In this document: positions 18,079 through 36,632 of the stretch, in pieces
How the letters are laid out: each line of letters begins with the position of its first letter
Position numbering within the stretch: the first letter of the stretch is position 1
NCBI GenBank assembly: GCA_016787645.1
Contig: JAEUUF010000019.1
Coordinates: 124,001-188,000, forward strand
DNA: 64,000 nucleotides
Source: Cyclobacteriaceae bacterium
Lineage (GTDB): Bacteria; Bacteroidota; Bacteroidia; Cytophagales; Cyclobacteriaceae
Direction: 5' to 3'
The notes under the pieces: generated by a model
Databases searched by the model: none
Told to the model about the DNA's origin: nothing
Seen by the model: only the letters and a program-made list of their open reading frames with translations
Program-made: the position numbers and the translations under genes

Positions 18079-20064
18079 ATGAGTCTGCTGTTCAACACTT
18101 CCCTGCTGCTATCCTTCGCGCTGTTTTTCGTCCCCAAGCGGATGAAATATTTGGTCACCCTCCTTCTGCAGGTATTGCTGATTGTTTCTACCGGAACCTG
18201 GGCGTTAGATGCCCTTATGGGAAGCGAAGTGGTGATTGTGCCCCTCGGAATCTCCACGTGGAGCGGCGAGATCATCATGACCATTGACAAACTCAGTGCC
18301 TTCTTCATCCTGCTGCTCGATTTTGTCTGCTTTGCCGGGGTGCTGTATGCCGGTGGTTACCTCAGGACTTCCATAGCGAAAAAAAGAGATGTCATCATCT
18401 CTCTTCATTTCTTCAGCCTGCTGTGGCTTAATGCTTCAATGGTATTAGTTACTGCTATGGGTGACGGGCTGAGTTTTCTGCTGGCCTGGGAGCTGATGTC
18501 ATTGACTTCCTTTATCCTCGTCATTTTCGAAGGCCAAAAAGAGACAACACTTAGAACCGGCATCAACTACCTGCTCCAGATGCACCTGGGCTTTGCCTTG
18601 ATCATGTTCGGATTCCTGGTCGTGAAAGATGCAACTGGTGAAATGTCTTTCCAGGCACTGGGTCCATACTTTGCCACCCATTCCAACACCATTGTATTCC
18701 TGATCTTCTTTGCCGGGTTTGGCATTAAGGCAGGCTTTATCCCGCTGCATACCTGGCTTCCAAAGGCACACCCAGCTGCTCCTTCCCACGTGTCGGGCAT
18801 CATGAGCGGTGTAATGATCAAGATGGGCATTTACGGAATCCTCCGGGTAACTTCCTTCCTGAGCGCTGATCAGGAATTAATCGGAAGCATTGTATTGAGC
18901 GTGGGCATTGTATCCGGGCTGGTGGGTGTCATACTGGCCATCATGCAACATGACTTGAAACGACTGCTCGCCTATCACAGTGTTGAAAATATCGGCATCA
19001 TCGGTATTGGCATCGGCATGTCCATCCTGGGCATGGCCAACCAGGATCCTGCACTAGCGGTGCTGGGCATGGCCGGCGCACTATTGCATTGTGTCAATCA
19101 TGCCTTGTTCAAGTCACTGCTGTTCTTCACGACCGGAAACATTTATCACGCCACCGGGACAGTGAACATGGATGAGTTGGGTGGCCTTGTTCATCATGCC
19201 AGGGCCACTTCACTCGCCTTCCTGGTCGGCGCAATTGCCATCAGCGGAATCCCTCCCTTCAATGGATTCATTTCTGAATTCCTCATTTATAATGGCATCG
19301 TGGTGAATTTTACGCACGCCACTTTTGCGATGTCGTTGGCGGGACTAGCCAGCCTGGTCAGCCTGGTTCTGATTGGCGGGCTTTGTGTGTATTGCTTTAC
19401 CAAAGCATTTGGTCTCACTTTTCTCGGCTCCCGGCGTTCGTTTCATCCGGTGACCTACCACCGGATTCCATGGATAATGATTTTCCCATTGGTGCTGCTG
19501 GGATTGGCCATCACCCTGATTGGATTTTTTCCCAGGCTCATCGTGGAGCCGCTGGCCGGCGCCCTGACCGCCTTCGGAAATCTCGAGGCACAATCACCGG
19601 CTTTGCTTTCCACAAGTTCCGCGCTTCAGGCCATCGGGTTGACAAACCTTGTCTTTGTTGTCGCTATGGTGGTGGTCTCCAGTTTGCGCGCCTGGCAACA
19701 AGCCCGAGTAGTTCGTGCGACGGGGCCTACGTGGGGCTGTGGATATTCGGCTGGCGACTTCCGTCACCAGTATACGCCCACCTCGTATGCCAGCAGTTTG
19801 CTTGAAGTGGTTGAGCCCGCGGTGGTTTATCGAAAAGACTACCCGTCAATTGCCGAGGCGGATATCTTCCCTGAGAAACGTTCCTTTCGAACTCACACGT
19901 CCGATCGAGTGGAGCAATCCGTGGTAATAACCATCATCGATCTGCTCATCAAGTACCTGCCCATGGCGGGCCGGGCGCAGACCGGTTATATCCATCACTA
20001 CCTGCTGTACCCGGTTGTCTTCATGATCGTGATCGTTCTTCTGACACACTTCAATTATATCTGA
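18079..20064 (+). CDS. HyfB-like proton-pumping membrane subunit (NuoL/M/N family) of an Ehr-type complex
   Basis: 661 residues, strongly hydrophobic, about 14-16 membrane segments. Antiporter-type complex I subunit: contains the conserved Glu helix (LLAWELMSLTSFILV), the GIKAGFIPLHTWLPKAHPAAPSHVSGIMSGVMIKMGIYGI signature with the pumping Lys, HDLKRLLAYHSVENIGII, and MAGALLHCVNHALFKSLLFFTTGNI. The long C-terminal part with a cytoplasmic 'TWGCGY' segment is typical of HyfB rather than NuoN. It would translocate protons or sodium across the cytoplasmic membrane. First gene of a six-gene operon with junctions of 1-19 bases or a 4-base overlap. Confidence 0.88.
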   Translation: MSLLFNTSLLLSFALFFVPKRMKYLVTLLLQVLLIVSTGTWALDALMGSEVVIVPLGISTWSGEIIMTIDKLSAFFILLLDFVCFAGVLYAGGYLRTSIAKKRDVIISLHFFSLLWLNASMVLVTAMGDGLSFLLAWELMSLTSFILVIFEGQKETTLRTGINYLLQMHLGFALIMFGFLVVKDATGEMSFQALGPYFATHSNTIVFLIFFAGFGIKAGFIPLHTWLPKAHPAAPSHVSGIMSGVMIKMGIYGILRVTSFLSADQELIGSIVLSVGIVSGLVGVILAIMQHDLKRLLAYHSVENIGIIGIGIGMSILGMANQDPALAVLGMAGALLHCVNHALFKSLLFFTTGNIYHATGTVNMDELGGLVHHARATSLAFLVGAIAISGIPPFNGFISEFLIYNGIVVNFTHATFAMSLAGLASLVSLVLIGGLCVYCFTKAFGLTFLGSRRSFHPVTYHRIPWIMIFPLVLLGLAITLIGFFPRLIVEPLAGALTAFGNLEAQSPALLSTSSALQAIGLTNLVFVVAMVVVSSLRAWQQARVVRATGPTWGCGYSAGDFRHQYTPTSYASSLLEVVEPAVVYRKDYPSIAEADIFPEKRSFRTHTSDRVEQSVVITIIDLLIKYLPMAGRAQTGYIHHYLLYPVVFMIVIVLLTHFNYI

Positions 20065-20065
20065 T

Positions 20066-20971
20066 ATGCTCGCCCTGCTGGTTATCCTGCTTTCCTGCAC
20101 GTTCTTCCCAGGAGTAATTGTCAAAACCAAGGCATTGTTCAGTGGGCGCAAGGGTCCAGGTATTTTCCAGCCCTGGATCGACATCGTGCGACTCCTGAAG
20201 AAAGGGAGTGTCTACAGCACGGTTTCCAGTTATGTGTTTCAGACAGGCGCATCGGTTTACCTGGCATCTGTATTGGTTGCTGCCCTATTTGTTCCCTTCG
20301 ATCAGCATACGGCTCTCATTTCCTTCCCCGGCGATTTTGTCATGTTTGCTTATCTCCTTGGGCTTGGGCGATTCTTTCTTATCATCAGCGCCCTGGATGT
20401 TTCCAGCGGCTTCGAGGGTATGGGCGCCAACCGGGAAGCATTTTATTCGATGTTGGCGGAGCCGGCCTTTTTTATCCTCATGGGCTCACTGGCGATGTTT
20501 ACCGGGTACACCTCGTTCAATGAAATCTTCATCAACCTGCATTACCAGGACTACTTTTCAATCATCATTGCCATCATCGCCGCATTTGTCCTCGGCAACC
20601 TGACGCTCGTGGAAACAAGCCGGTTGCCAATCGATGATCCACTCACTCATCTGGAATTGACCATGGTACATGAAGTGATGGTGCTTGACCACAGCGGCAT
20701 CGACCTCGGGCTTATCAAGATTGCCAACAACATCAAGTTCGTGCTATTCAGCACGCTCAGCGCCAACTGTTTCATCCCGCAAACATGGAGCCTGGGAATG
20801 CAGATTGCGGTTTACCTCATTGCGCAAGCCGGGTTTGCGGTGGGGATTGGCTACTTCGAGTCGTTCAGGGCTAGAAACAAAATGGCCATGAACGCGCAGT
20901 ATATCCTTTCCATTTCGGCGATTTCCATGATTCTCATTTTTGTAATCATTATCCTGAATAACAAGATCTGA
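20066..20971 (+). CDS. HyfC-like membrane subunit (NuoH/HycD family)
   Basis: 301 residues with about eight membrane segments. The NuoH/HycD family anchors the peripheral arm and links it to the pumps. Family marks: GRKGPGIFQPWIDIVRLLKKG at the N-terminus, the acidic loop 'LDVSSGFEGMGANREAFYSMLAEPAFF' (the G-ANRE--S-L-EP pattern) and 'VETSRLPIDDPLTHLELTMVHEVMVLDHSG'. Loops and acidic residues known to form the quinone or E-channel region in complex I relatives are present. It starts one base after the hyfB-like stop. Confidence 0.9.
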   Translation: MLALLVILLSCTFFPGVIVKTKALFSGRKGPGIFQPWIDIVRLLKKGSVYSTVSSYVFQTGASVYLASVLVAALFVPFDQHTALISFPGDFVMFAYLLGLGRFFLIISALDVSSGFEGMGANREAFYSMLAEPAFFILMGSLAMFTGYTSFNEIFINLHYQDYFSIIIAIIAAFVLGNLTLVETSRLPIDDPLTHLELTMVHEVMVLDHSGIDLGLIKIANNIKFVLFSTLSANCFIPQTWSLGMQIAVYLIAQAGFAVGIGYFESFRARNKMAMNAQYILSISAISMILIFVIIILNNKI

Positions 20972-20973
20972 CC

Positions 20974-21600
20974 ATGATCAACTTCGTCATTATCCTTTTC
21001 ATCATCACACTAATCTATTTATCCAAGGTAGAGATGGTGAAGAGCTACTACCCGCTCATGGGCTTGCAGGGGTTGCTGCTCTTTGGCCTCGCTTTGCTGG
21101 AATTGCATGAGGTCGACGCCTTGCAACTGGCCTTCATCCTGCTGGAGACCCTGATCTTCAAGGCCATCTTTGTGCCGCTCTTCCTGTTGCGGATTACCCG
21201 TGGTAAAATTCACCGGCATCAAAACAGCCCGGTCAAGGGATACTACGCGGTATTCATCGCCCTGGTCATTATTGTGCTGAGCTTCATTACCTCGCACGAA
21301 ATGCATGACGAATTTTTGGATGTGAAATACTTTACAGCCGCCACGTCCTCCATACTCATCGGCCTGTTCATCGCCATCAACAACCGCGACCTGGTAACTC
21401 ACCTGATTGCTTATCTCGTTATCGAAAATGGAATCTTCCTGCTGTCGCTGGCGCTCGGTTCCGAACTGCCCATGTTTGTCAACGCCGCAATCCTCCTTGA
21501 TATCTTCACCAGCGTACTGATCATGGGTATTTTCTTCAACAAATTGAAAGATTACTTCCAGAATACGGATATCTCACAATTGTCACAGCTAAAAGATTAA
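20974..21600 (+). CDS. HyfE-like membrane subunit
   Basis: 208 residues, six or so membrane segments. Hydrogenase-4 component E family, which combines a NuoK-like fold with extra helices. The C-terminal half carries the NuoK-like pattern, 'SILIGLFIAINNRDLVTHLIAYLVIENGIFLLSLALG', with the buried Glu in the VIENG helix. The middle 'LETLIFKAIFVPLFLLRI' is also typical. It begins 2 bases after hyfC-like and ends 5 bases before hyfF-like. Confidence 0.85.
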   Translation: MINFVIILFIITLIYLSKVEMVKSYYPLMGLQGLLLFGLALLELHEVDALQLAFILLETLIFKAIFVPLFLLRITRGKIHRHQNSPVKGYYAVFIALVIIVLSFITSHEMHDEFLDVKYFTAATSSILIGLFIAINNRDLVTHLIAYLVIENGIFLLSLALGSELPMFVNAAILLDIFTSVLIMGIFFNKLKDYFQNTDISQLSQLKD

Positions 21601-21605
21601 GGCGG

Positions 21606-23033
21606 ATGGATATCCTGACGTTCATCATTGTTACAGCTGTACTCGCGGGAGTCACCTATTTCGTGAGGATCATTTTCCTCAGCCACGCGTTGGTTTTTCT
21701 GTATGTGGCCCTGATGGTGATCCTTGGCATCTCATTGGGAAACAAAGCCGGTGAATCACTTGGGGAATTCTTCTTCGCCGACCGGCTGGGATTGATTTTC
21801 TATGTAGTCCTCGTCATAGTCAGCCTGCTCTCCGCAGTACATTACATCAAGTTTGTACATGACCGAAGGGTTGTGCCCAGCTCGGTAGCCTTGCACAACG
21901 CGGGCACCATCCTTTTCACCGGCGCCATAGTCGGTGTATTGTTCACCTCGCACTTTGGCACCTTATGGGCCTTCATGGAAGCGACCACCCTGGGGGCGTC
22001 CGTGCTCATCTATCACAACCGGAACCAGGATTCACTTGAAGCCACGTGGAAGTACTTGTTTGTCTGTTCGATCGGCATCGCTATCGCGTTCGCCGGGATA
22101 CTCTTCCTCGGCCTGGCTGCCCACAAAGTCGGTCACATCGATTTTACGTTTGCCGCCATCAAGACCGAAGCGCCTCGATTGAACCCTATCTGGCTGCAGG
22201 CCTGCTTCCTCCTGGTGCTCACCGGGTTTAGCGTTAAGATGGGACTGGTCCCGCTTTTCAATGTGGATATCGATGCCAAAGATGCCTCTCCTTCCCAGGT
22301 GGGCGCCAGCCTCTCCAGCGTCCTGATGAATGCCGGATTTGTTGCTATCTACCGGTTCTACGATGCCTTTTCCGGGACCACCATCCTCCCCTGGATGAAC
22401 CGATTGCTGATGATCACCGGGCTTGTCTCCCTGTTCTTCGCAGCCGCCTACCTGCTCAAGGTGAAAAACATCAAGCGACTATTCGCCTACTCCAGCATGG
22501 AGCACGCCTCGCTGGTGATCATCGCCTTTTCCTGTGGTGGGGTAGGCTACTTCGCGGCCGTGCTTCACCTCATCATGCACTCCCTGGCCAAATCAAGTCT
22601 CTTCTTCCAGGTTTCCCAGATGCACCGCATCTATGCCAGTAAGATGGACGACGGCATTGGCAGTTACCTCCGCATCAACCCGCTCGGAGGCCTCGTCTTG
22701 CTCCTGGGTTTCCTGTCGATTATCGCCATGCCTCCCTCCGGAATGCTGATTACCGAACTGATGATGTTCCAGGCGCTGGTCGCCAAGAATTTCTGGTGGC
22801 TGGCCGTACTTATCCTGATCCTGGTACTCGTGATCATTTACGGGCTTGCCGTGCGGTTACTGGGTATTCTCTTCCTCAAGAAACCGCTGGCTAAAATCAA
22901 TACAGGTGGAGCCTCACCGTATGAATCCATCCTTCAGCTTGGATTGATCCTCGCGGTGTTTTACATCGGCCTTTTCCGCCCCGACTTTATAGTTCGAAAC
23001 ATTGAACTGGCGCTGAAAGCCCTGCCGCTATGA
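21606..23033 (+). CDS. HyfF-like proton-pumping membrane subunit
   Basis: 475 residues, about 14 membrane segments. Second antiporter-like subunit of the complex: conserved Glu helix 'GTLWAFMEATTLGASVLIYH', 'LTGFSVKMGLVPLFNVDIDAKDASPSQVGASLSSVLMNAGFVAIYRF' with the pumping Lys (in HyfF the usual HTWLPxAH is partly replaced, as here), 'NIKRLFAYSSMEHASLVIIAFSCGG' and 'HLIMHSLAKSSLFF'. Its presence with HyfB gives two pumping modules. The stop overlaps the hyfG-like start by 4 bases. Confidence 0.87.
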   Translation: MDILTFIIVTAVLAGVTYFVRIIFLSHALVFLYVALMVILGISLGNKAGESLGEFFFADRLGLIFYVVLVIVSLLSAVHYIKFVHDRRVVPSSVALHNAGTILFTGAIVGVLFTSHFGTLWAFMEATTLGASVLIYHNRNQDSLEATWKYLFVCSIGIAIAFAGILFLGLAAHKVGHIDFTFAAIKTEAPRLNPIWLQACFLLVLTGFSVKMGLVPLFNVDIDAKDASPSQVGASLSSVLMNAGFVAIYRFYDAFSGTTILPWMNRLLMITGLVSLFFAAAYLLKVKNIKRLFAYSSMEHASLVIIAFSCGGVGYFAAVLHLIMHSLAKSSLFFQVSQMHRIYASKMDDGIGSYLRINPLGGLVLLLGFLSIIAMPPSGMLITELMMFQALVAKNFWWLAVLILILVLVIIYGLAVRLLGILFLKKPLAKINTGGASPYESILQLGLILAVFYIGLFRPDFIVRNIELALKALPL

Positions 23034-24556
23034 ACATGCCGCAACCTTACGCCACCCTGCCCAACCAGGGCACACTGCCCCTCAAGGAACTTCCGGTATT
23101 ATCCTACTCGGAATTTTTTCAAACGGTCAGTCATTTACTGGGGCTTGAAGGGCACCATTGTGTAGCCTGCTATGGACATCGCACCCTTGAAAATATTCAG
23201 ATCATCTGCTGTATCGCTGACGACCTCCATCACACCATCAAAGTATTCTCATGCCTGGCAGAAGGTAATCGGCTGGTCCGACTTGCATCGCTGGCCAAGA
23301 CACACTTTCCCATGCATCTTTTTGAACGGGAGATTGCCGAAAATTTTGGGATTGAGTTTATGTACCACCCCTGGCCCAAGCCGGTGCGGTATGCCTGGAA
23401 TCGCGCTGACAAAACCCAGGTCATCAACAACTACCCGTTCTATCGCATTGATGGCAACGAACTTCACGAGGTGGGTGTGGGTCCGATACACGCCGGTGTA
23501 ATTGAGCCCGGGCATTTCCGTTTCCTTTGCAACGGCGAGACGGTTCTTCACCTGGAAATTCAATTGGGTTGGCAGCACCGCGGCGTTGAAGCATTGTTCC
23601 TCGAGATGCCGAGCCTGCTTCAGCGCACGATCCTTTCAGAGTCCATCGCCGGGGATACCGCCGTGGGTCACTCCCTGGCCTTTGTCAATCTCATGGAATC
23701 ACTCGGGAACATTACCGTACCCGAAGAACTGGAGCTGGAGCGCACGATGGCACTCGAGTTAGAACGAATTGCCATGCACCTGGGAGACCTGGGAAATGTT
23801 AATATCGGGATGGCGTATCAACTGGCTTCCTCGGTGTTTGGCACCCTGCGTACGCCCTTGATCAACTACACACAAACGTGGTGCGGCAACCGCTTTGGCA
23901 AGGGACTCAATCGTGTCGGCGGCACCCACTACCCTTTCAATGAAGAGCTGGCCAAGAAACTTGTCACTTTGCTGGATAAGGTGGAAGAGAGTTTCTCTCC
24001 CATGTCCGAACGACTTTTCTCCCTACCCAGCTTCCTGATGCGCGCAGAAACAATTGGACGGGTTACGGAAAAGCAAATGCGCCTGATTGGCGCCGTGGGG
24101 ATGACTGCCCGGGCTGCAGGGATTCCTTCAGATATCCGGCAATCTCATCCCTTCGCAGCCTACAAGCGATATGAAATTGATCATCAAACGCTCGAGCAAG
24201 GCGATGTGTGGGCACGCATGATGTTACGAAGCCTGGAAGTGAAAGATTCCATTCGCTTTGTCCGCGAGCTTGCACAGCGTTCAGGGCCCGCAACAAACCC
24301 TTCCTCCCCAATAAAAGAAATGGATCTCAAGCTTATGCCCGATACGTTCTGCATTTCGCTTGTGGAAGGCTGGCGCGGTGAAATTTGCCATTGTGCCATC
24401 ACCAATGATCGCGGGGAACTTGCACATTACAAAATCAAGGATCCTTCTTTCCACAACTGGATGGCGCTGGCGCTAAGCCTTCGCGATCTCGAGATTTCCG
24501 ATTTCCCCATCAATAACAAAAGCTACAACCTGAGCTATTGCGGGTTTGACCTGTAA
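23030..24556 (+). CDS. HyfG-like large subunit (NuoC-NuoD fusion) without [NiFe] ligands
   Basis: 508 residues. Residues 1-125 are NuoC-like (FPMHLFEREIAENFGIEFMYHPWPKPVRY); 145-508 are NuoD/hydrogenase-large-subunit-like (GPIHAGVIEPGHFRF, LGWQHRGVEALF, ELERIAMHLGDLGN). In true group 4 [NiFe] hydrogenases a CGxC motif follows the HRGxE helix, and the C-terminus has DPCxxC. Here the first region reads SESIAGDTAVGH (203-214) and the protein ends NLSYCGFDL, so neither cysteine pair exists and the nickel site cannot form. This is the mark of Ehr (energy-converting-hydrogenase-related) complexes. The DPSFHNW segment is retained. It cannot be a hydrogenase; its substrate is unknown. Confidence 0.88.
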   Translation: MNMPQPYATLPNQGTLPLKELPVLSYSEFFQTVSHLLGLEGHHCVACYGHRTLENIQIICCIADDLHHTIKVFSCLAEGNRLVRLASLAKTHFPMHLFEREIAENFGIEFMYHPWPKPVRYAWNRADKTQVINNYPFYRIDGNELHEVGVGPIHAGVIEPGHFRFLCNGETVLHLEIQLGWQHRGVEALFLEMPSLLQRTILSESIAGDTAVGHSLAFVNLMESLGNITVPEELELERTMALELERIAMHLGDLGNVNIGMAYQLASSVFGTLRTPLINYTQTWCGNRFGKGLNRVGGTHYPFNEELAKKLVTLLDKVEESFSPMSERLFSLPSFLMRAETIGRVTEKQMRLIGAVGMTARAAGIPSDIRQSHPFAAYKRYEIDHQTLEQGDVWARMMLRSLEVKDSIRFVRELAQRSGPATNPSSPIKEMDLKLMPDTFCISLVEGWRGEICHCAITNDRGELAHYKIKDPSFHNWMALALSLRDLEISDFPINNKSYNLSYCGFDL

Positions 24557-24575
24557 ACCGACAAACAAGGACACC

Positions 24576-25340
24576 ATGCAAATTCTTCCCGAAGTTCAGA
24601 TTCTTTACCGGCTGGGCAAACAATACATCCCGGATGTGACTGCGCCTCAAGTGCCCGGGCCGTTCAAGGGGCGACCGGCAATTTCCACCGAGCGTGTGGA
24701 TGAAGACGCCCTTGCCTCCCTTTGCCCCACGGGAGCCATCGGAAAAGCTCCGGTTTCCATTGACATGGGCAAGTGCGTGATGTGCGGTGAGTGTGCGTTT
24801 GCTTTTCCCCACAAAATCAAATTCACCACCGACTACAAGATCGCAACCAATGTGCGGGAACGGTTGGTTGTCAAGGAGGGAGAAACGGGACCGATTTCAC
24901 TCGATGAAACGAAAGTGCGCAATGAAATCCGATCGCTGTTCGGTCGATCGCTCAAACTCCGGGAGATTTCAGCGGGAGGATCCAATGCTGACGAAGCGGA
25001 ATTGAATGCCTGTGGTAATCCCAACTTTGACATGGGTCGGTTTGGAATTGAGTTCCTGGCAAGCCCAAGACACTGCGACGGCATCGTGATCACCGGGCCC
25101 ATCAGCGAGAACATGGCCGAGGCCACCCGGATCTGCTATGAGGCCATACCCTCACCCAAACTCATCATCCTGGTGGGCAGTGATGCGATCAGCGGAGGCA
25201 TCTTTGCAGGAAGCAAGGCGCTCAACCGCCGCTTTATTGAAGAGCATCCGATCGATCTGTATGTACCCGGCAATCCCCCGCATCCCCTCACCTTTGTAAA
25301 TGGTATTCTTGAATTAATCCGAAAAAGAAAGACCCGATGA
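24576..25340 (+). CDS. Fused ferredoxin (HyfH-like) and small subunit (HyfI/NuoB-like), proximal cluster ligands lost
   Basis: 254 residues from the ATG at 24576 (an upstream in-frame TTG overlaps hyfG and is unlikely). Residues 30-85 are a ferredoxin domain with C50 (LCPTGAI) and C67, C70, C73 (CVMCGEC): exactly one complete [4Fe-4S] set, the other cluster's four ligands being absent together. Residues 130-250 are NuoB/HyfI-like (RFGIEFLASPRHCDGIVITGPISENM, PSPKLIILVGSDAISGGIF, YVPGNPPHP). All four proximal/N2 cluster cysteines are replaced: N137 and E140 for CxxC, D203 for GxCA, N233 for PGCPP. Three other cysteines (146, 167, 187) are not at canonical positions. Last gene of the operon. 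Confidence 0.88.
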   Translation: MQILPEVQILYRLGKQYIPDVTAPQVPGPFKGRPAISTERVDEDALASLCPTGAIGKAPVSIDMGKCVMCGECAFAFPHKIKFTTDYKIATNVRERLVVKEGETGPISLDETKVRNEIRSLFGRSLKLREISAGGSNADEAELNACGNPNFDMGRFGIEFLASPRHCDGIVITGPISENMAEATRICYEAIPSPKLIILVGSDAISGGIFAGSKALNRRFIEEHPIDLYVPGNPPHPLTFVNGILELIRKRKTR

Positions 25341-26009: not shown

Positions 26010-28226
26010 ATGAGCACTTTTGAAATTCCCAAAGATGGCCTGGAAGGCCTAAAGCAAAACTGGCGAGCGGACGCCATGTCCGGATTCCTCGTGTTTCTAC
26101 TTGCCCTTCCTTTGAGCCTGGGTATTGCCAAGGCCAGCGAATTTCCCCCTGCCATGGGCGTTCTCACGGCGATGATCGGAGGTTTGTTGGTCAGCTTTTT
26201 CGCAGGGTCAAGGCTTACCATCAAAGGACCTGCCGCGGGACTCATCACCATTTGCGCAGGTGCCGTTAACGAACTGGGCGGCGGCGCGGAAGGCTGGCAC
26301 CTCGCCCTGGGGGTAATCGTGGTTGCTGCTTCCATCCAAATTATATTCGGCTTTCTTAAACTGGGTTCCCTCAGCGACTTCTTCCCCCATTCAGCTGTCC
26401 ACGGGATGTTGGCCGCGATCGGCCTGATCATCTTCTCCAAACAAATCCATGTGTTGCTCGGAATTGATCCGTCCACGCTCAAGGGACTCGAGCCGGTGGA
26501 ACTTTACAAGATGATTCCGCATTCCATCATGAACGCCGACCCAAGAGTAACCCTGGTGGGTATCATCAGCCTGGTGATCATCTTTGGCATGCCCCTTTTG
26601 AAGTCACCTCTTGTAAAGAAAATTCCCCCGCCTATGGTGGTCCTTATGGTAACCATCCCGATGGCCCTAATCATGGACTTTCAACATACTGAGCCCGCAT
26701 TTGACCTGGTCAAAATTGGCGACTTCTGGGGGACTGTAGGAATCAACGCCGATTTCTCCATGATTGGCACCGGGGTGTTTTGGAAATACGTAATCATGTT
26801 CCTATTTATCAACAGCCTGGAGTCATTGCTGACCGTGAAGGCCGTTGACGGACTTGACCCCTGGAAACGCATTTCGAATCCAAATAAAGACCTGGTCGCC
26901 GTTGGCCTTGGCAATGGTGTCAGTGCGATTCTCGGTGGGTTACCCATGATCTCGGAGGTAGCGCGTAGTTCCGCCAACGTCAACTTCGGCGGTCGCACGC
27001 GTTGGGCCAACTTCTTTCACGGTTTCTTCCTGCTGGTGGCGATGGTGGCCTTCATCCCGGTCATTGAGATGATTCCCAATACTGCCCTCGCGGCCCTGCT
27101 TATTTCCGTTGGTTATCGGCTTGCCTCGCCCAATGAATTTTTCAAAACCTACCGCATTGGTGCCGAGCAGCTCGTCATTTTTGTGACAACCATTGTGGTG
27201 ACCGTGGCCACCGACCTTCTTGTTGGTGTGGGGGCCGGTATCGCCATGAAGTTCTTCTTCCACGTAATTAACGGTGCGCCAATTAGGAGCCTTTTCAAGG
27301 CACGCTATGAACTTCATGAATCGAATGGGGAGTACCAGGTCAAAGTGATTGACTCCGCCATTTTCTCCAACCTGATTGGGTTCAAGAAACTCTTCCACAA
27401 GTTTGCTCCGGGCAAGAAGGTCATCATGAACTTCTCCGATGCCCGTATTGTGGACCACTCCTTTATGGAGGCCCTGCACCACTTTGAAGAAGAGTACCAG
27501 CACGGTGGGGGATCGCTCGCGGTGCAAGGCTTTGACAACTTCAAGGCATTCTCCAACCATCCGTTTGCAGCTCGTAAGCTCGATCCGGATGCAAAATTCA
27601 AGATTGAAATCAAGCTTAGTCCACGTCAGATGAACCTACGGGCCTTTGCCGAAAGTAATGAGTACGCATTCTATCCGCAGCGGGTCCGCAGCGCCATGAA
27701 ATACAAGAACTTCCCCATTCAGCGCGGACTGAAAATCCAGTTCGAGGAAAACATTATGGAAAAGTTCCTGGAGCACGGCCGAATCGATGTGTCAGACGTC
27801 ACACTCAGCGAGGGAGCACTGTCTGCTACCCTTGAAACACAAATTACCCTGGTGCTGATCACGGAGATTGAAATCCCAATTCCCGATTTTGCCCTTGAGC
27901 CAGAGGGGTTATTGACCAAATTCTCCGAATTGGCCGGCACCAAGGACATTGACTTTGAAGGTCATCCTGAATTTTCCAAAAAGTACTACTTACGCGGAGA
28001 CCAAGAGGAAAAGATCAGGGCATTCTTCAAAGAACCGATTCTCTCTTTCCTCGAGAACCGGGAAGAAACCCACATCGAGTGTCACAAGAACAAGCTACTT
28101 TTCTACAAGAAGCGCGCTTTCCTCGAGACCGACGAAATCCTGTATACAGAGAAATTTGCGGAAGACTTTCTGCAGGTCGTGATGGAATCTCACAGTCAAC
28201 CAGCTTCTGTAACAGCACATGATTAA
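26010..28226 (+). CDS. SulP-family anion (sulfate/bicarbonate) transporter with STAS and extra C-terminal domain
   Basis: 738 residues. SLC26/SulP fold, about 12-14 membrane segments in residues 15-425: MSGFLVFLLALPLSLGIAKASEFPPAMG, the anion-site region FAGSRLTIKGPAAGLITICAGAV, HGMLAAIGLIIFSKQ, NSLESLLTVKAVDGLDPWKR and GNGVSAILGGLPMISEVARSSANVNFGGRTR. Residues 440-530 are a STAS domain (KKVIMNFSDARIVDHSFMEALHHFEEEY). The last 200 residues are an extra cytoplasmic region of unknown type. SulP proteins carry bicarbonate, sulfate or similar anions; a carbonic anhydrase and a second SulP lie 8 kb away. Overlaps the porin gene by 8 bases, so both are co-translated. Confidence 0.87.
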   Translation: MSTFEIPKDGLEGLKQNWRADAMSGFLVFLLALPLSLGIAKASEFPPAMGVLTAMIGGLLVSFFAGSRLTIKGPAAGLITICAGAVNELGGGAEGWHLALGVIVVAASIQIIFGFLKLGSLSDFFPHSAVHGMLAAIGLIIFSKQIHVLLGIDPSTLKGLEPVELYKMIPHSIMNADPRVTLVGIISLVIIFGMPLLKSPLVKKIPPPMVVLMVTIPMALIMDFQHTEPAFDLVKIGDFWGTVGINADFSMIGTGVFWKYVIMFLFINSLESLLTVKAVDGLDPWKRISNPNKDLVAVGLGNGVSAILGGLPMISEVARSSANVNFGGRTRWANFFHGFFLLVAMVAFIPVIEMIPNTALAALLISVGYRLASPNEFFKTYRIGAEQLVIFVTTIVVTVATDLLVGVGAGIAMKFFFHVINGAPIRSLFKARYELHESNGEYQVKVIDSAIFSNLIGFKKLFHKFAPGKKVIMNFSDARIVDHSFMEALHHFEEEYQHGGGSLAVQGFDNFKAFSNHPFAARKLDPDAKFKIEIKLSPRQMNLRAFAESNEYAFYPQRVRSAMKYKNFPIQRGLKIQFEENIMEKFLEHGRIDVSDVTLSEGALSATLETQITLVLITEIEIPIPDFALEPEGLLTKFSELAGTKDIDFEGHPEFSKKYYLRGDQEEKIRAFFKEPILSFLENREETHIECHKNKLLFYKKRAFLETDEILYTEKFAEDFLQVVMESHSQPASVTAHD

Positions 28227-29571: not shown

Positions 29572-29621
29572 ACCGTTGTGCAGGGAGGAGGAATGTGGTA
29601 GTTTTAGGGACATTGCCCGCC

Positions 29622-30083
29622 ATGTTTTCAAAAGCTTGTGAATACGCGATCCGTGCCGCTCTGTATGTGGCCATTAAAAGCACCAATGGTGAGCGTCTTG
29701 GCCTGAAAGAGATCGCCAAGGAGGTCGACTCACCCCTTCCGTTCACGGCAAAGATTCTGCAAACCTTGTCCCGGGAAGGTATCATTTCGTCGACGAAAGG
29801 CCCGAATGGCGGCTTTTACCTCAAGCCAAAGTCAAAACCCATTCCTCTTTCCGCCATCGTGAGGGCCATTGACGGAACCGATACCCTGCATACCTGCGGG
29901 ATTGGCCTGAAAGAGTGCTCCGACCGCTTTCCGTGCCCCATTCACGACCAGGTGAAAGCCTATAAGGAGAGCCTTCGTCGCGCCATGAATGAAAAGACGA
30001 TCCAGGAACTGGCCATAGATCTCACTGAAGGGAAGACCTTCCTTAAGAACAGGGTGAGGAGTACGCTCACTAATAAGAAGTAG
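29622..30083 (+). CDS. Rrf2-family iron-sulfur transcriptional regulator
   Basis: 153 residues from the ATG at 29622 (MFSKACEYAIRAALYVA), which is the normal Rrf2 start; an upstream in-frame start adds nine residues. Winged helix (residues 1-70, with SPLPFTAKILQTLSREGIISSTKGPNGGFYL) followed by C92, C99 and C105 (HTCGIGLKECSDRFPCPIH). Three cysteines with this spacing hold an Fe-S cluster in IscR/NsrR/RsrR relatives, sensing iron-sulfur status, nitric oxide or redox state. Neighbouring ric (Fe-S repair) fits a nitrosative or oxidative stress sensor. The usual target sites were not identified. Confidence 0.87.
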   Translation: MFSKACEYAIRAALYVAIKSTNGERLGLKEIAKEVDSPLPFTAKILQTLSREGIISSTKGPNGGFYLKPKSKPIPLSAIVRAIDGTDTLHTCGIGLKECSDRFPCPIHDQVKAYKESLRRAMNEKTIQELAIDLTEGKTFLKNRVRSTLTNKK

Positions 30084-30102
30084 TGTCCAAAAATTTCAGG
30101 AC

Positions 30103-31482
30103 TCAGACAGGCTCAAATTGTGCAGTAAAGTGGCGGAGAAAAGGCGGCTCGTAGCTGATCCTAAGCCCTTTCGTCTGATCACGTCGATCCAGGATGTCAT
30201 CGAAGACGTCTACCACATAGTCGATGTGACTTTGTGTGTAAACCCGGCGCGGTATTGCCAACCGGATCAATTCATGCTTTGCCGGAATTAGTTTCTTGTT
30301 TGCATCATAGGCACCAAACATCACGCTGCCCACTTCGACACAACGGATTCCGCCCAGGGTGTAGAGATCACAAACAAGAACCTGCCCCGGATATTGGTCG
30401 GTTGGAATTTTGGAATAAAGTTTACCGGCATCGACATATACCGCGTGACCTCCAATGGGCCACACCACAGGAATACCTTTCGCTTTGAGGTGTGATCCGA
30501 GGTATTCGGTACTCTTGATGCGGTAGTGAAGGTAATCGGGGTCGAACACCTCTTTGAGACCGATCGACATCGCCTCCAAGTCACGGCCTGACAATCCACC
30601 ATACGTGGTAAAGCCTTCTGAAATGATTAAAAGGTTAGTGCACTTGCGGTTCAATTCGTCATCCTTCATCGCCAGTAAGCCACCGATGTTCACCAACCCA
30701 TCCTTTTTTGCGCTCATGATAAAGGCATCTCCCAGGCGCAAGGTCTCCCGTGCGATTTCCTCATAGGTTTTATTTTCAAAGCCCGGTTCCCGGTGCTTGA
30801 TGAAATAACTGTTTTCTGCTACCCGGCATCCATCAATAACCAGGAGAAGCTTGAACTCATCACACAATGCCCTCGCGGCGCGCAGGTTGGCAATGCTTAC
30901 AGGCTGCCCACCAGAAGAGTTGTTGGTAATGGTCATGATGACGGCGGCTACATTGGCTGCCCCTCGCGCTACAATGGCCTGGCGCGCCTTGCTGATATCA
31001 AGATTACCTTTGAAGGGCAGATCACGCTCCAGGTCATGCGCTTCCTCAGGAAGCAAATCGATTGCCTCCGCACCGGTGAATTCAATGTTGGCGCGGGTAG
31101 TATCAAAATGGGTATTGCTGATAAACAACTTCCCTTTTCCGCCCAGTAGGCCATACAGGATTCGTTCGGCTGCCCGTCCCTGGTGTGTGGGAAGAATATG
31201 GGGCATTCCGGTCAACTCCTTCACCACCTCCTCCAATTTCAGCCAGCTGCGTGCCCCGGCGTAGCTTTCGTCGGCCATCATCATGCCGGCCCACTGCCGG
31301 TCGCTCATGGCCCCCGTACCGCTATCCGTCAGTAAATCAATGAACACGTCGGCAGAATGAAGCTGGAAGGGGTTGTAGCCCACCTCGCGAAGTCGTTTGG
31401 CCCTGAATTCCTCCGTCGTGATGGTCAGTGGTTCAACCATCTTGATTTTGAAAGGTTCGGTCAAAGTGCGTTTCTTCTTCAT
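30103..31482 (-). CDS. tnaA: Tryptophanase
   Basis: 459 residues. PLP beta-eliminating lyase converting tryptophan to indole, pyruvate and ammonia. N-terminal PFKIKMVEPL, DLLTDSGTGAMSDRQWAGMMMADESYAG and HILPTHQGRAAE, the PLP pocket LLLVIDGCRVAENSYFIK, and the Schiff-base Lys 260 in SAKKDGLVNIGG. The close relative tyrosine phenol-lyase has an Arg (SMERG) where this protein has Val (GIRCVEVGS), as in tryptophanases, so I call tryptophanase. The C-terminus ends in the family phrase RHFTAQFEPV. It is divergent from ric. Confidence 0.9.
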   Translation of the reverse strand: MKKKRTLTEPFKIKMVEPLTITTEEFRAKRLREVGYNPFQLHSADVFIDLLTDSGTGAMSDRQWAGMMMADESYAGARSWLKLEEVVKELTGMPHILPTHQGRAAERILYGLLGGKGKLFISNTHFDTTRANIEFTGAEAIDLLPEEAHDLERDLPFKGNLDISKARQAIVARGAANVAAVIMTITNNSSGGQPVSIANLRAARALCDEFKLLLVIDGCRVAENSYFIKHREPGFENKTYEEIARETLRLGDAFIMSAKKDGLVNIGGLLAMKDDELNRKCTNLLIISEGFTTYGGLSGRDLEAMSIGLKEVFDPDYLHYRIKSTEYLGSHLKAKGIPVVWPIGGHAVYVDAGKLYSKIPTDQYPGQVLVCDLYTLGGIRCVEVGSVMFGAYDANKKLIPAKHELIRLAIPRRVYTQSHIDYVVDVFDDILDRRDQTKGLRISYEPPFLRHFTAQFEPV

Positions 31483-31504
31483 TCCGAGGGGGTTATATCA
31501 AAAA

Positions 31505-31512
31505 CAAACCTA
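31505..31512 (-). promoter_or_regulatory. Bacteroidetes -7 element for tnaA
   Basis: On the minus strand this reads TAGGTTTG, an exact TAnnTTTG match, placed 22 bases before the tnaA ATG, giving a leader of roughly 15 bases. Confidence 0.5.
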
Positions 31513-31666
31513 TCGGCAATTGTGCCCACGAAATCATGATATTCATCAGGGTGGAAAAGATTTATAATAGGATCAACTAGTCTTTTATTATCGATTGCTT
31601 TAATTTTAACCAATCGCTTGGATCCCTGGTCGTCGGGTTGACCGGGAATTTTTTAAACGTCATACC

Positions 31667-32422
31667 GTGAACAAGGAGATGATTCGCGCGTCCACCGTCT
31701 CAGAGATGGTGAACCAATTCCCGGGAGCCATTCCCGTTTTCGAGAAATTCAACATCGACTTCTGCTGCCAGGGAAAACTACCCTTTGCGGAAGCCTGCCG
31801 GCACGCAGGCGTATCGGAGGAAGAAGTTATCGCTGCCCTTTATCAACCTGCACCAGCGTTCAATGCTACCCTTCGGGCCCAAGACTGGTCACTCGACCTG
31901 CTGACCAACTATATCGTTCAGAATCATCACCAATACACAAAGCGTGTCCTCATCGAGTTATTGAATCTTGCAGACAAAGTCTGCCACAAGCACGGTGCCC
32001 ATCACCCTGAGCTGACTGAAATCAGGGATCAGGTTCAGGCCCTGAACAAAGAACTCCAGGCACACATGTACAATGAAGAGCACGTTCTGTTTCCAGCCAT
32101 TCAAGCGCTGGTCAAGGAATCTGCCCGCCTTCTTCCTTCTCCGGATTCCATCGCCAAATCCATGAGCAACCTGGACCCGCTGATCCTGACGCTTGAAACG
32201 GAGCACGAACTGGCCGGCCATTTCATGAACCGGATCAGAAGCCTTAGCACAAATTTTTCAACACCACCCGATGCCTGCACGTCCTACTCAACGCTTTACC
32301 AACTCCTGAAGGAATTCGAGGCCGATTTGCACCTCCACATCCACCTGGAAAACAACCTGCTTTTCCCGAAAACACTTTCGCTCCAGGCTCGCCAACAAGA
32401 AAAACCACTATACGTCAACTAA
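31667..32422 (+). CDS. ric: Ric/YtfE/ScdA iron-sulfur cluster repair di-iron protein
   Basis: 251 residues from a GTG at 31667 (an ATG four codons later is equally possible). N-terminal ScdA_N/DUF542 domain (residues 5-58: STVSEMVNQFPGAIPVFEKFNIDFCCQGK), then a hemerythrin-like four-helix domain carrying the di-iron ligands: NHHQYTKR, HGAHHPELTEI, AHMYNEEHVLFPAI, ETEHELAGHFMNRIR and DLHLHIHLENNLLFP. Ric proteins release iron or restore Fe-S clusters after nitric oxide or peroxide damage. Next to an Fe-S regulator and class II ribonucleotide reductase, this supports a nitrosative/low-oxygen response unit. Confidence 0.93.
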   Translation: MNKEMIRASTVSEMVNQFPGAIPVFEKFNIDFCCQGKLPFAEACRHAGVSEEEVIAALYQPAPAFNATLRAQDWSLDLLTNYIVQNHHQYTKRVLIELLNLADKVCHKHGAHHPELTEIRDQVQALNKELQAHMYNEEHVLFPAIQALVKESARLLPSPDSIAKSMSNLDPLILTLETEHELAGHFMNRIRSLSTNFSTPPDACTSYSTLYQLLKEFEADLHLHIHLENNLLFPKTLSLQARQQEKPLYVN

Positions 32423-34418: not shown

Positions 34419-35054
34419 TCAAACAGGATCATAGTATTGATACACCGGATCAATGGGCGTATTGGGGTCCATCTTGATCAGGTTATGCAGGATCCCGTCT
34501 GTAAGTCTGTAGACCCAGCCGTGGAGGGTCGGGCGATTGTCCGTCTTCCACATGGTCTGAATGATAGACGTCTTAGCCAGATTCATCACTTGCTCCTGCA
34601 CATTGAGTTCGGTAAGCCGGTCAATCCGGGCATCTCCTTCAGGCAGTAATTCCAGCTCTTCCTTGTGGAAATAGGCAACATCCTTGATGTTGCGCAGCCA
34701 CTTGTTAATGAGTCCCAGGTTTTGATGACTCATCGCTGCCCTTACTCCGCCACATCCATAATGGCCGCATACAATGATGTGCTTTACCTTCAAAACCTGG
34801 ACGGCATACTGCAACACGCTGAGCATGTTCAGGTCGGTATGCACCACCATGTTGGCGATGTTGCGATGTACAAATATTTCCCCCGGCGCAGTATTGGTGA
34901 TTTCATTGGCCGGCACCCGGCTATCCGAACAACCAATCCACAGGAATTCGGGAGTCTGAATTTTCGAAAGCCGGGTGAAATACTCCGGGTCTTTACCCAC
35001 CTGCTCCGTCGCCCAGGCTTTGTTCTCCAGCAATAGTTTCTCAAATGAGTTCAT
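34419..35054 (-). CDS. can: Beta-class carbonic anhydrase
   Basis: 211 residues. Interconverts CO2 and bicarbonate with zinc. Ligands and active-site residues align with E. coli Can by number: C42, D44 and R46 (GCSDSRVPANEI), H98 and C101 (CGHYGCGGVRAA). HRNIANMV and the C-terminal LHGWVYRLTDG are also typical. Cytoplasmic. It follows a SulP transporter on the same strand with 12 bases between them, a classical bicarbonate uptake or pH pair. Confidence 0.96.
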   Translation of the reverse strand: MNSFEKLLLENKAWATEQVGKDPEYFTRLSKIQTPEFLWIGCSDSRVPANEITNTAPGEIFVHRNIANMVVHTDLNMLSVLQYAVQVLKVKHIIVCGHYGCGGVRAAMSHQNLGLINKWLRNIKDVAYFHKEELELLPEGDARIDRLTELNVQEQVMNLAKTSIIQTMWKTDNRPTLHGWVYRLTDGILHNLIKMDPNTPIDPVYQYYDPV

Positions 35055-35066
35055 AAGAGGAAAGTG

Positions 35067-36632
35067 TTAATCTACCTGTTTGAATAAGGGGGCTTTGGCG
35101 CCGGCCGTCTTCTTTATCTCGACCGCAATGGAACGTGTGGGGGCGCTCTTGATAAAATCTTCGATGGTCTCCACGATGTCGGCATCAAAAAATTGACTCT
35201 TGCCACCGTCGATCACCACAGAAGTATTTTTTGGCAGTTGCTCAAAGATTCTTCGAAGGCTTGCTTTGTGTACAAAGGACACATCTTTGGTAAACTTGAT
35301 CAGATACTGCGGTCCAGTATTGACGACAATCATGGCCGTCTGTACATTGGTCTTTAATACAAAAAAGATCGCGACCAGCACACCAATCGAAATACCTACC
35401 AGTAAATCGGTAAGCAGAATGGAAACAACCGTTACCAGGAAAGGAAGGAACTGATCAACTCCTTTCTTGAAAGTTTCGCGATACATGGCGGGGGTATTGA
35501 GCTTATACCCAACCACCAGGAGCACACCCGCCAGGCACGCCAATGGGATTAATTCAAGAACATGGGGCATGATCAGCACGACCACGGCCAAGAACACACC
35601 ATGAAGAATGGCTGACACTTTAGTTCGCCCGCCGGCAACCAGATTGGCCGAACTGCGAACGATGACCGCAGTCACGGGCAAACCACCGATTAATCCGCTC
35701 AGAAAATTACTTAGTCCCTGCGCTTTGAGCTCCCTGTTCAACGGGGTGATCCTCCGGTAAGGATCCAGCTTATCGATTGCTTCGACACTCAGCAAGGATT
35801 CGATGCTGGCGATCAACGCAATCGTGACCGCGATGCGATAAACACGAGGGTCAGTAAACCCACCGAAATCCGGAAACACGATCACCTCGCCAAGGCTTCC
35901 CAGGCCGCTGAAACCGCCAAGGTTGACCAGGTGCGTTGCCTGAACTTCCAGGGTGGGTACAAATGCTTTGAAGAGTGCATTCAAAGAAACACCCAGCGCC
36001 ACCACCACAAGGGGCGCGGGAACATAGGTCGTCCACTTGAACCGCTTGACCCATGTGGTGGGCCATAGTACAAGCACCAGCAGCGAAACCATTGAAATGA
36101 GGATGGCACCTGGGGTGAAATAGGCTATGGCGTTGAGAATTTCCGTAAACGTATTTTGATGGTCAGGTTGGAAGAAACTTTCGTCACCTTCGTAATCGGC
36201 ATCATAGCCCAGCGCATGCGGAATTTGTTTTAAGATCAGGATCAGCCCGATGGCCGCCAGCATGCCTTTGATGACTGCCGCCGGAAAAAAGTGGCCGATG
36301 GTTCCTGCCCGAAGAAAGCCGAGGAGAATTTGCAGTACACCAGCCAGAACGACCGCCAACAGAAACAAGGGAAATGACTGCAACTCCTGGATCGCGCTGA
36401 AGACAATGGTCGCCAGCCCGGCGGCCGGGCCGCTGACACTTAACGATGATTTGCTGAGTGATCCTGCCACCACGCCTCCAATAACGCCGGCTACCAATCC
36501 GGAGAAAAGTGGCGCACCCGAGGCAAGGGCAATTCCCAAACAGAGCGGTAAGGCTACGAGGAACACCACCAGCGCCGCCGGGATGTCGTGAGATAAATTG
36601 TCAAGCGGTTTAAATGAAATACGTTCTTCCAT
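35067..36632 (-). CDS. SulP-family transporter paired with carbonic anhydrase (bicarbonate transporter candidate)
   Basis: 521 residues. SulP fold with ALVVFLVALPLCLGIALASGAPLFSGLVAGVIGG, SKSSLSVSGPAAGLATIVFSAI, KGMLAAIGLILILKQIPHALGYD, ASIESLLSVEAIDKLDPYRR and LSGLIGGLPVTAVIVRSSANLVAGGRTK, followed by a short STAS domain (NTSVVIDGGKSQFFDADIVETIEDFIKSAPTRSIAVEI). Members next to carbonic anhydrase are usually bicarbonate carriers (BicA-like). It lacks the 200-residue extension seen in the SulP protein at 26010-28226, so the two are distinct paralogues. Confidence 0.88.
   Translation of the reverse strand: MEERISFKPLDNLSHDIPAALVVFLVALPLCLGIALASGAPLFSGLVAGVIGGVVAGSLSKSSLSVSGPAAGLATIVFSAIQELQSFPLFLLAVVLAGVLQILLGFLRAGTIGHFFPAAVIKGMLAAIGLILILKQIPHALGYDADYEGDESFFQPDHQNTFTEILNAIAYFTPGAILISMVSLLVLVLWPTTWVKRFKWTTYVPAPLVVVALGVSLNALFKAFVPTLEVQATHLVNLGGFSGLGSLGEVIVFPDFGGFTDPRVYRIAVTIALIASIESLLSVEAIDKLDPYRRITPLNRELKAQGLSNFLSGLIGGLPVTAVIVRSSANLVAGGRTKVSAILHGVFLAVVVLIMPHVLELIPLACLAGVLLVVGYKLNTPAMYRETFKKGVDQFLPFLVTVVSILLTDLLVGISIGVLVAIFFVLKTNVQTAMIVVNTGPQYLIKFTKDVSFVHKASLRRIFEQLPKNTSVVIDGGKSQFFDADIVETIEDFIKSAPTRSIAVEIKKTAGAKAPLFKQVD

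Follow-up and report, generated by a model that had tools for sequence, protein, structure and literature searches.

An Ehr-type operon whose fused ferredoxin/NuoB-like subunit lacks the N2 cluster ligands, and the conservation of this loss among its relatives

The operon, its large subunit and its membrane arm

The window, which is the whole 64,000-nucleotide stretch of Cyclobacteriaceae DNA that was analysed, encodes a six-gene operon on the + strand (positions 18079-25340) in the order B-C-E-F-G-HI. The first gene encodes a HyfB/NuoL-like antiporter subunit of 661 residues (B, 18079..20064, +), which has a Proton_antipo_M domain and finds its best PDB match in MbhH (6cfw_H). It is followed by a HyfC/NuoH-like membrane anchor subunit of 301 residues (C, 20066..20971, +; NADHdh, E = 8.5e-28), also a member of the core operon, a HyfE-like membrane subunit of 208 residues (E, 20974..21600, +), which matches the NCBIfam hydrogenase 4 membrane subunit at 60.9 bits, below the curated cut-off of 136, and a HyfF/NuoN-like antiporter subunit of 475 residues with a Proton_antipo_M domain (F, 21606..23033, +). 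The last two genes encode a HyfG/NuoCD-like large subunit of 508 residues (G, 23030..24556, +; Complex1_49kDa), which was aligned to HycE, MbhL and Nqo4, and a fused ferredoxin/NuoB-like subunit of 254 residues with an ATG start (H-I, 24576..25340, +), recognised from its open reading frame and Pfam matches. No NADH-module gene was found in the operon. As a separate NuoB gene (G000:C8) with an adjoining separate 49-kDa subunit gene lies elsewhere in the same genome, the H-I operon is not the ordinary complex I of that genome.

The core gene order across 67 loci is (B) B C E F G HI, with the plain order found with one B in 21 loci and with two B in another 21. When 877 ORFs from these 67 loci (all longer than 9 kb; ORFs running off the locus ends excluded) were clustered, the core subunits alone formed widely shared families and the next most common family occurred in 6 loci, which led us to reject a partner oxidoreductase or maturation gene that the loci have in common near the operon. 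Several loci depart from the common layout. Loci L004, L003, L010 and L005 have a second membrane module (B' C' E' F') directly before H-I, approximately 45-50% identical to the membrane subunits of the window, and the large subunit gene is located upstream of this module in L004, L003 and L010. The H-I gene stands alone in L077 and beside G only in L073, with no recognised membrane subunit genes adjoining in either case. In L021 (248-2388) and L028 (3-1983), a second Ehr large subunit and an unfused Cys-bearing small subunit are encoded directly upstream of the operon lacking the N2 cluster ligands (hereafter N2-less). In addition, a gene for a helix-turn-helix plus PTS EIIA protein immediately precedes B in each of the three sister Ehr operons that were tested (L131 2457-3131; L133 2820-3491; L138 17405-18073).

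The best PDB matches of G are 7z0s_E and 6cfw_L. Alignment to MbhL and HycE showed that SIAGDT replaces the RxCGxC motif, with Ala and Thr in place of the cysteines; the C-terminus, NLSYCGFDL, has no CxxC, and the DPCxxC motif of the NiFe site is also missing. In the alignment to Thermus Nqo4, Ile158 and Gly208 occupy the places of the quinone His and Tyr, which we take to be His38 and Tyr87. These features are shared by 80 N2-less large subunits of at least 45% identity, in which the prevailing residues are Ala207 (75), Thr210 (71), Ile158 (80), Gly208 (77) and Asp209 (80), and a Cys is found in none of the 80 at position 207 and in one at position 210. The sister large subunits (nine compared, further ones read) also lack the NiFe ligands and are therefore of the Ehr type. 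About a dozen positions of G are specific to the group when the 80 N2-less rows are compared with 9 of the 11 sisters, L136 and L140 being left out as distant. The most conspicuous of them is Cys453 (codons of Cys453-His454 at 24386..24391, +), which is present in 78/80 N2-less rows against 0/9 sisters, the neighbouring His454 being common to both sets (80/80 and 9/9). As judged from these alignments, G is a large subunit without any known active site.

The membrane arm retains most of the residues of ion-translocating subunits. In B, Glu138, Lys217, Lys248 and Lys345 are present in 73/73 rows from N2-less loci, and in F, Glu125, Lys211 and Lys329 in 60/60 rows, with Asn (56/60) or Ser (4/60) at position 242, the place of the TM8-type Lys. 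We assume that these correspond to the antiporter-type TM5 Glu and the TM7, TM8 and TM12 Lys, so that B carries all four of the Mrp/complex I-type residues and F carries three, the TM8-type Lys excepted.

Cluster ligands of the fused subunit and their conservation

The C-terminal I half of H-I is of the NuoB/HycG/MbhJ type, with a Pfam Oxidored_q6 match at residues 138-247 (E = 7.8e-20). Fold comparison using Foldseek gave MbhJ (6cfw_J) and HycG (7z0s_G) as the best PDB entries among the 50 matches listed, and all 50 rows listed in the alignment (VIA-align) match the I half (residues ~100-254). The Fer4 match at residues 61-75 of the ferredoxin half is weak, with 20.4 bits, just below the cut-off of 21.1. 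Nevertheless, this half keeps Cys50 within a CP motif (codon 24723..24725, +) and Cys67, Cys70 and Cys73 in a CxxCxxC motif (codons 24774..24794, +), which together make up the complementary ligand set of one cluster. By the two-cluster ferredoxin/NuoI pattern, this is presumably the N6b cluster, the neighbour of N2. The other four ligand positions of the ferredoxin half have no Cys in the window, where the ligand set of the outer cluster N6a is gone and Phe77 stands at its last ligand place. The first-pass annotation had described the same one-cluster set and the loss of the other four, and in the aligned relatives each of the four retained positions is Cys in 91/91 rows.

The four N2 positions of the I half are taken by Ser136 (24981..24983, +), Asp139 (24990..24992, +), Asp203 (25182..25184, +) and Asn233 (25272..25274, +), without a single Cys. 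The first-pass annotation had noticed that all four ligands were lost and had named Asp203 and Asn233 correctly, but it placed the first two at Asn137 and Glu140, which is off by one residue. A profile of 73 relatives (L037 and others left out) could be aligned to MbhJ (6cfw) without a gap, with GDNSxE on SCNGCD, and the nearest Cys-bearing relatives (L021, L028) align GSCNACEWE on GGSNADEAE. The lost cysteines are thus at Ser136 and Asp139, and the register of Asn137 and Glu140 is ruled out by both the gapless profile and the pairwise alignments; these two are adjacent residues that N2-less and Cys-bearing proteins have in common.

To describe the conservation of the vacated positions, we aligned 91 full-length rows of at least 54% identity, the window included. 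They were taken from a contig scan for H-I relatives (best 80 of 96) and from a search of 97 genomes, which added ten full-length loci, several of them from the same organisms again; 24 tblastn matches with less than 54% identity or spanning fewer than 200 residues were set aside. Full-length H-I relatives are found at 55-80% identity. Eight pairs are identical over residues 8-248, leaving 83 distinct rows among the 91, and all of these represent a few evolutionary events on a tree rather than 91. Positions 136/139/203/233 read D-C-D-N in 58/91 rows, S-D-D-N, the type of the window, in 13/91 and other sets in 20/91, and the N/E/D/N set that the first-pass annotation had put up for checking is not fixed. 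By position, residue 136 is Asp in 74/91 and Ser in 13/91, residue 139 is Cys in 59/91 and Asp in 18/91, residue 203 is Asp in 88/91, and residue 233 is Asn in 89/91 and Ser in 2/91. The corresponding counts in the 83 distinct rows are 80 for Asp203, 81 for Asn233, 73 for Asp136, 58 for Cys139 and 11 for Asp139.

No row has a Cys at position 136, 203 or 233 (0/91). The loss of all four N2 cysteines is complete in the window, and 59/91 rows keep one Cys, at position 139, which is absent from the remaining 32/91. The number of acidic residues is nearly invariant: exactly two of the four N2 positions are acidic in 90/91 rows, and the remaining row has an X residue. Every row has an Asp at position 136 or 139; both are Asp in L012, which alone among the resolved rows has no acid at position 203. 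The last N6a cysteine, at position 77, is kept in 13/91 rows. A comparison of 84 N2-less with 27 Cys-bearing fused proteins over 254 positions, from which the truncated L155 and five distantly related Cys-bearing rows were excluded, revealed only five positions that are at least 80% fixed in both sets and yet different, namely 136, 138, 202, 203 and 233. All five belong to the N2 site, which indicates a local rebuilding of the N2 pocket. Altogether, the alignments argue that the replacement of the N2 cluster by acidic residues is family-wide and is more than chance.

These results favour selected remodelling over decay, as had been proposed: dozens of genomes carry these residues, the open reading frame and the operon are retained, and all clean differences from the Cys-bearing sisters fall within the N2 pocket. 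The first-pass annotation had named, as a refutation, homologues that retain the four cysteines together with a lone degenerate copy in the window. Such homologues do exist, but the window copy is not a lone degenerate case, and decay of a lone copy is rejected in view of its relatives. Cys146, Cys167 and Cys187, once considered as a possible new site, do not form a general replacement, as all three are present in only 15/91 rows. These 15 all fall among the 18 rows (11 distinct) with Asp139, and among 32 sisters with intact N2, Cys146 occurs in 14, Cys187 in 11 and Cys167 in none. Such a putative site would be clade-specific at best.

Relatives, order of losses and gene neighbours

Fused Cys-bearing H-I proteins were sought throughout the phylum, with matches in 17/395 genomes at E 1e-40 or better, and a search of the class gave matches in 37/245 genomes at 1e-35. 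The resulting set of 121 rows, in which NuoB loci were left out except for two outgroups, duplicate loci and second short matches were dropped and identical proteins were merged, has 84 N2-less rows, which combine a complete N6b set with no more than one Cys in the N6a stretch, 32 fused rows with all four N2 and all four N6b cysteines, one truncated row (L155) and four unfused rows. Counting the truncated L155, which has three of them and a gap, the fused rows with N2 cysteines number 33, and the set of four is complete in the other 32. The 32 rows vary in the N6a stretch, with two or three cysteines in 19 and none or one in 13, whereas none of the N2-less rows among the 121 keeps two or more, and the complete N6a set is missing in all 84 of them. 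One sister, L114, has all 12 cysteines.

A careful tree of 64 of the 121 rows, with long-branch rows removed and ligand columns excluded, separates the N2-less rows from the others by one branch with support of 80/88 (not starred), L114 being the sister of this clade (98/94). A single branch of this tree carries both the N2 and the N6a losses; one N2-keeping group has also lost N6a, except for two of its members. A quick tree of 79 of the 121 rows instead puts L114 inside the N2-less clade, beside L012 (89). Because the two trees disagree on L114, a single joint loss of both clusters is likely but not proven. As the sister large subunits are also devoid of NiFe ligands, the NiFe site was gone before N2 in this group.

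The clade of the window is made up of the rows with Asp139 (11 distinct members), and those with a taxon label belong to Cyclobacteriaceae, Cytophagaceae or Cytophagales. In the window, a SulP-family anion transporter gene (26010..28226, +; Sulfate_transp, E = 6.6e-56) follows H-I after ~670 bases. Counted between match ends, a SulP gene lies on the same strand 57, 101, 220, 292, 667, 673 (the window) or 742 bases downstream of H-I in 7/11 distinct clade members. It lies 5.6 and 7.7 kb downstream in L006 and L008, with DabB-DabA in between, and none was seen in the ~1.5 kb of DNA of L009 or the 9 kb of L010. The 12-Cys sister L114 also has a SulP gene, 21 bases downstream of H-I. Outside this clade, N2-less operons showed no SulP/DabA link beyond weak matches in L014 (41%) and L020 (25%).

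The association was also seen across the genus. Among its 63 genomes, nine have H-I; SulP1-type transporters, a hand-drawn set of strong matches that leaves out a short 86% fragment in G048, are present in 9/9 of these against 25/54 others (Fisher 0.0022), and DabA in 8/9 against 29/54 (Fisher 0.048), although these values are uncorrected for kinship and, the genomes being kin, are not independent tests. Moreover, SulP1-type transporters and DabA co-occur in 32/63 genomes; they travel together, and their link to the H-I complex may therefore be secondary. DabA is also encoded in the genome of the window, outside the operon, and no match to DabA (PF10070) was found among the six core subunits. 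SulP is a probable functional partner of the H-I complex in the clade of the window.

Other neighbours were also observed. A SulP-STAS-EIIA fusion is encoded between G and H-I of a distant Ehr operon (L136 6939-9137). Approximately 9 kb downstream of H-I, the window has a beta-carbonic anhydrase gene beside a second SulP transporter gene (34419-36632, -), and matches to this pair are also found near H-I in L005. The window further encodes an Rrf2-type regulator and a RIC/ScdA-type iron-sulfur repair protein 4-7 kb downstream (29595-32422).

Possible roles and comparison with known systems

The first-pass annotation held that an electron path from the ferredoxin cluster to the large subunit would lack its usual last step. 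By sequence this is right and even understated, because the complete N6a set, the NiFe ligands and the quinone residues are also missing, which leaves an electron path without its entry cluster and without an exit. We propose a redox-disconnected Ehr complex that works as an ion translocator, and give this reading about an even chance. Electrons would not reach the large subunit, and the vacated N2 pocket, with its two acids and nearly always an Asn, might bind a cation or form a proton or hydrogen-bond relay. The surviving N6b-type cluster would be structural or a sensor of redox state or oxygen. The membrane arm could act as a gradient-driven ion translocator, either exchanging ions or gating their flow in the manner of Mrp antiporters and DabB, and not as a redox pump. 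In the clade of the window, the complex probably serves SulP-type anion uptake, perhaps of bicarbonate; we infer the bicarbonate link for this clade only.

Some published observations bear on this proposal. According to the available text of PMC8042128, R121 mutants of Yarrowia complex I without functional N2 assemble natively and have no quinone reductase activity; the same text also refers to an earlier, contested claim of complex I function in the absence of N2. In the formate hydrogenlyase (FHL), as excerpts of PMC9474812 describe it, every step of the electron relay is shorter than 14 Å. On the other hand, several points speak against a translocator: Asp is able to ligate a [4Fe-4S] cluster, one Cys is kept at the N2 site in 59/91 rows, the N6a cysteine at position 77 is still present in 13/91, and F lacks the TM8-type Lys. 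In addition, one would not expect a complex without redox function to preserve its N6b ligands so strictly.

The best-placed alternative, which we nevertheless consider unlikely, is a new redox site: the pocket would hold a mononuclear or otherwise new metal, bound by Asp/Cys/Asp/Asn and perhaps by Cys453-His454 of the large subunit and reduced directly by the N6b-type cluster, and the complex would still be an oxidoreductase. The conservation of ligand-type residues, the N6b ligands in 91/91 rows and the presence of Cys453 in N2-less rows but not in the nine sisters are consistent with it, and MBS offers a precedent for remodelling at this place: in the portion of PMC7684303 available, its proximal cluster is ligated by three Cys and credited with catalytic potential. 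However, Cys139 is absent from 32/91 rows, a partner oxidoreductase gene does not recur widely next to the operon, 84/84 distinct rows lack a complete N6a set, through which electrons usually enter, and the position of Cys453 near the pocket is putative.

Ranking after it, with a low probability, H-I and G could form a structural or regulatory peripheral arm that caps and gates the membrane arm, its cluster sensing redox state, oxygen or NO. An isolated N6b-type set in 91/91 rows, without a partner cluster, would suit a sensor, as would the RIC/ScdA-type repair gene and the Rrf2 regulator downstream; but that pair recurs in only one of 67 other loci examined (L017), and sensing by the cluster is conjectural.

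Lower again we place the possibility that the vacated pocket is a metal/carboxylate site of a non-iron-sulfur kind, formed by Asp136 or Asp139, Asp203, Asn233 and perhaps Cys453-His454, which performs non-redox chemistry, such as CO2/bicarbonate conversion or cation gating, either driven by the membrane arm or driving it. If true, ion movement in this complex I would be coupled to a reaction at the former cluster site and not to electrons.

It is about equally doubtful that a [4Fe-4S] cluster remains at the N2 place with oxygen ligands from Asp, Asn and Ser, the chain working at a shifted potential. Asp can ligate [4Fe-4S] clusters, the small subunit of a [NiFe] hydrogenase mostly tolerated single Cys-to-Asp changes, and some proteins naturally have one proximal-cluster ligand replaced by Asp or Asn, all according to the accessible part of PMC4070099. 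Yet the variants given there are single substitutions, whereas the window has no Cys at the four positions and its relatives have at most one, and N6a is incomplete too. Finally, a degenerate, decaying gene, to which the ligand loss taken alone might point, can practically be dismissed in view of full-length relatives at 55-80% identity (83/91 rows distinct), the ferredoxin cysteines common to all rows and the conserved operon.

How electron transfer in the arm of complex I drives ions in the membrane is a long-standing question. If the proposed redox-disconnected translocator is correct, a natural relative that has the arm and the ion-channel residues, without the terminal-cluster ligands, would be a ready-made test of ion movement without electrons, and would also show what the arm does without them. 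The relatives can be arranged in order from the full complement of clusters to a single one, acidic residues having taken over the place of the last cluster. The complex may thus be a natural ion pump that is no longer run on electrons, with its ion channels and one isolated cluster kept.

No paper on a clade with a lost proximal cluster was found among the open-access papers searched, which is no proof that none exists, nor did we find a published rule that requires proximal [4Fe-4S] ligands in Ehr small subunits. The closest known systems are the Ehr complexes, which share the Hyf/Nuo-like (Hyf/Ech-like) subunit set and a group-4-type large subunit without RxCGxC and DPCxxC; the function of such complexes without NiFe ligands is at most suspected in the available text of PMC4378227, PMC6349859, PMC7894505 and PMC7304191. 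H and I are fused in the clade of the window and likewise in its sisters. However, the full-length Cys-bearing Ehr relatives compared here keep the proximal cluster ligands, whereas the clade of the window has lost them together with the complete N6a set, and the H-I of the window carries no proximal [4Fe-4S] ligands of the kind seen in those relatives.

The group 4 [NiFe] hydrogenases, including E. coli FHL (HycE/HycG/HycF) and P. furiosus MBH, provide the best PDB relatives of both the I half and G, and HycG holds its proximal cluster at the N2 place, as far as excerpts of PMC9474812 state. Compared to them, the complex of the window lacks the NiFe and proximal ligands and has one ferredoxin-half cluster set in place of two. 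It differs from respiratory complex I (NuoB/NuoI/NuoCD) in the absence of the N2 ligands, of the quinone His and Tyr at the aligned places and of an NADH-module gene. MBS of P. furiosus is also related to group 4 and has an altered proximal cluster with three Cys ligands; in the available text of PMC7684303 this cluster is kept as the proposed catalyst, whereas the complex of the window is devoid of its ligands. The DAB (DabA-DabB) CO2 system, as portrayed in the accessible text of PMC13144422, uses a complex I-type proton-conducting subunit without an electron chain, and is in this respect a precedent for the proposed ion movement without electrons. DabB-DabA genes adjoin the H-I operon in L006 and L008; compared to DAB, the complex of the window keeps a whole Hyf-like arm, and none of its core subunits is DabA.
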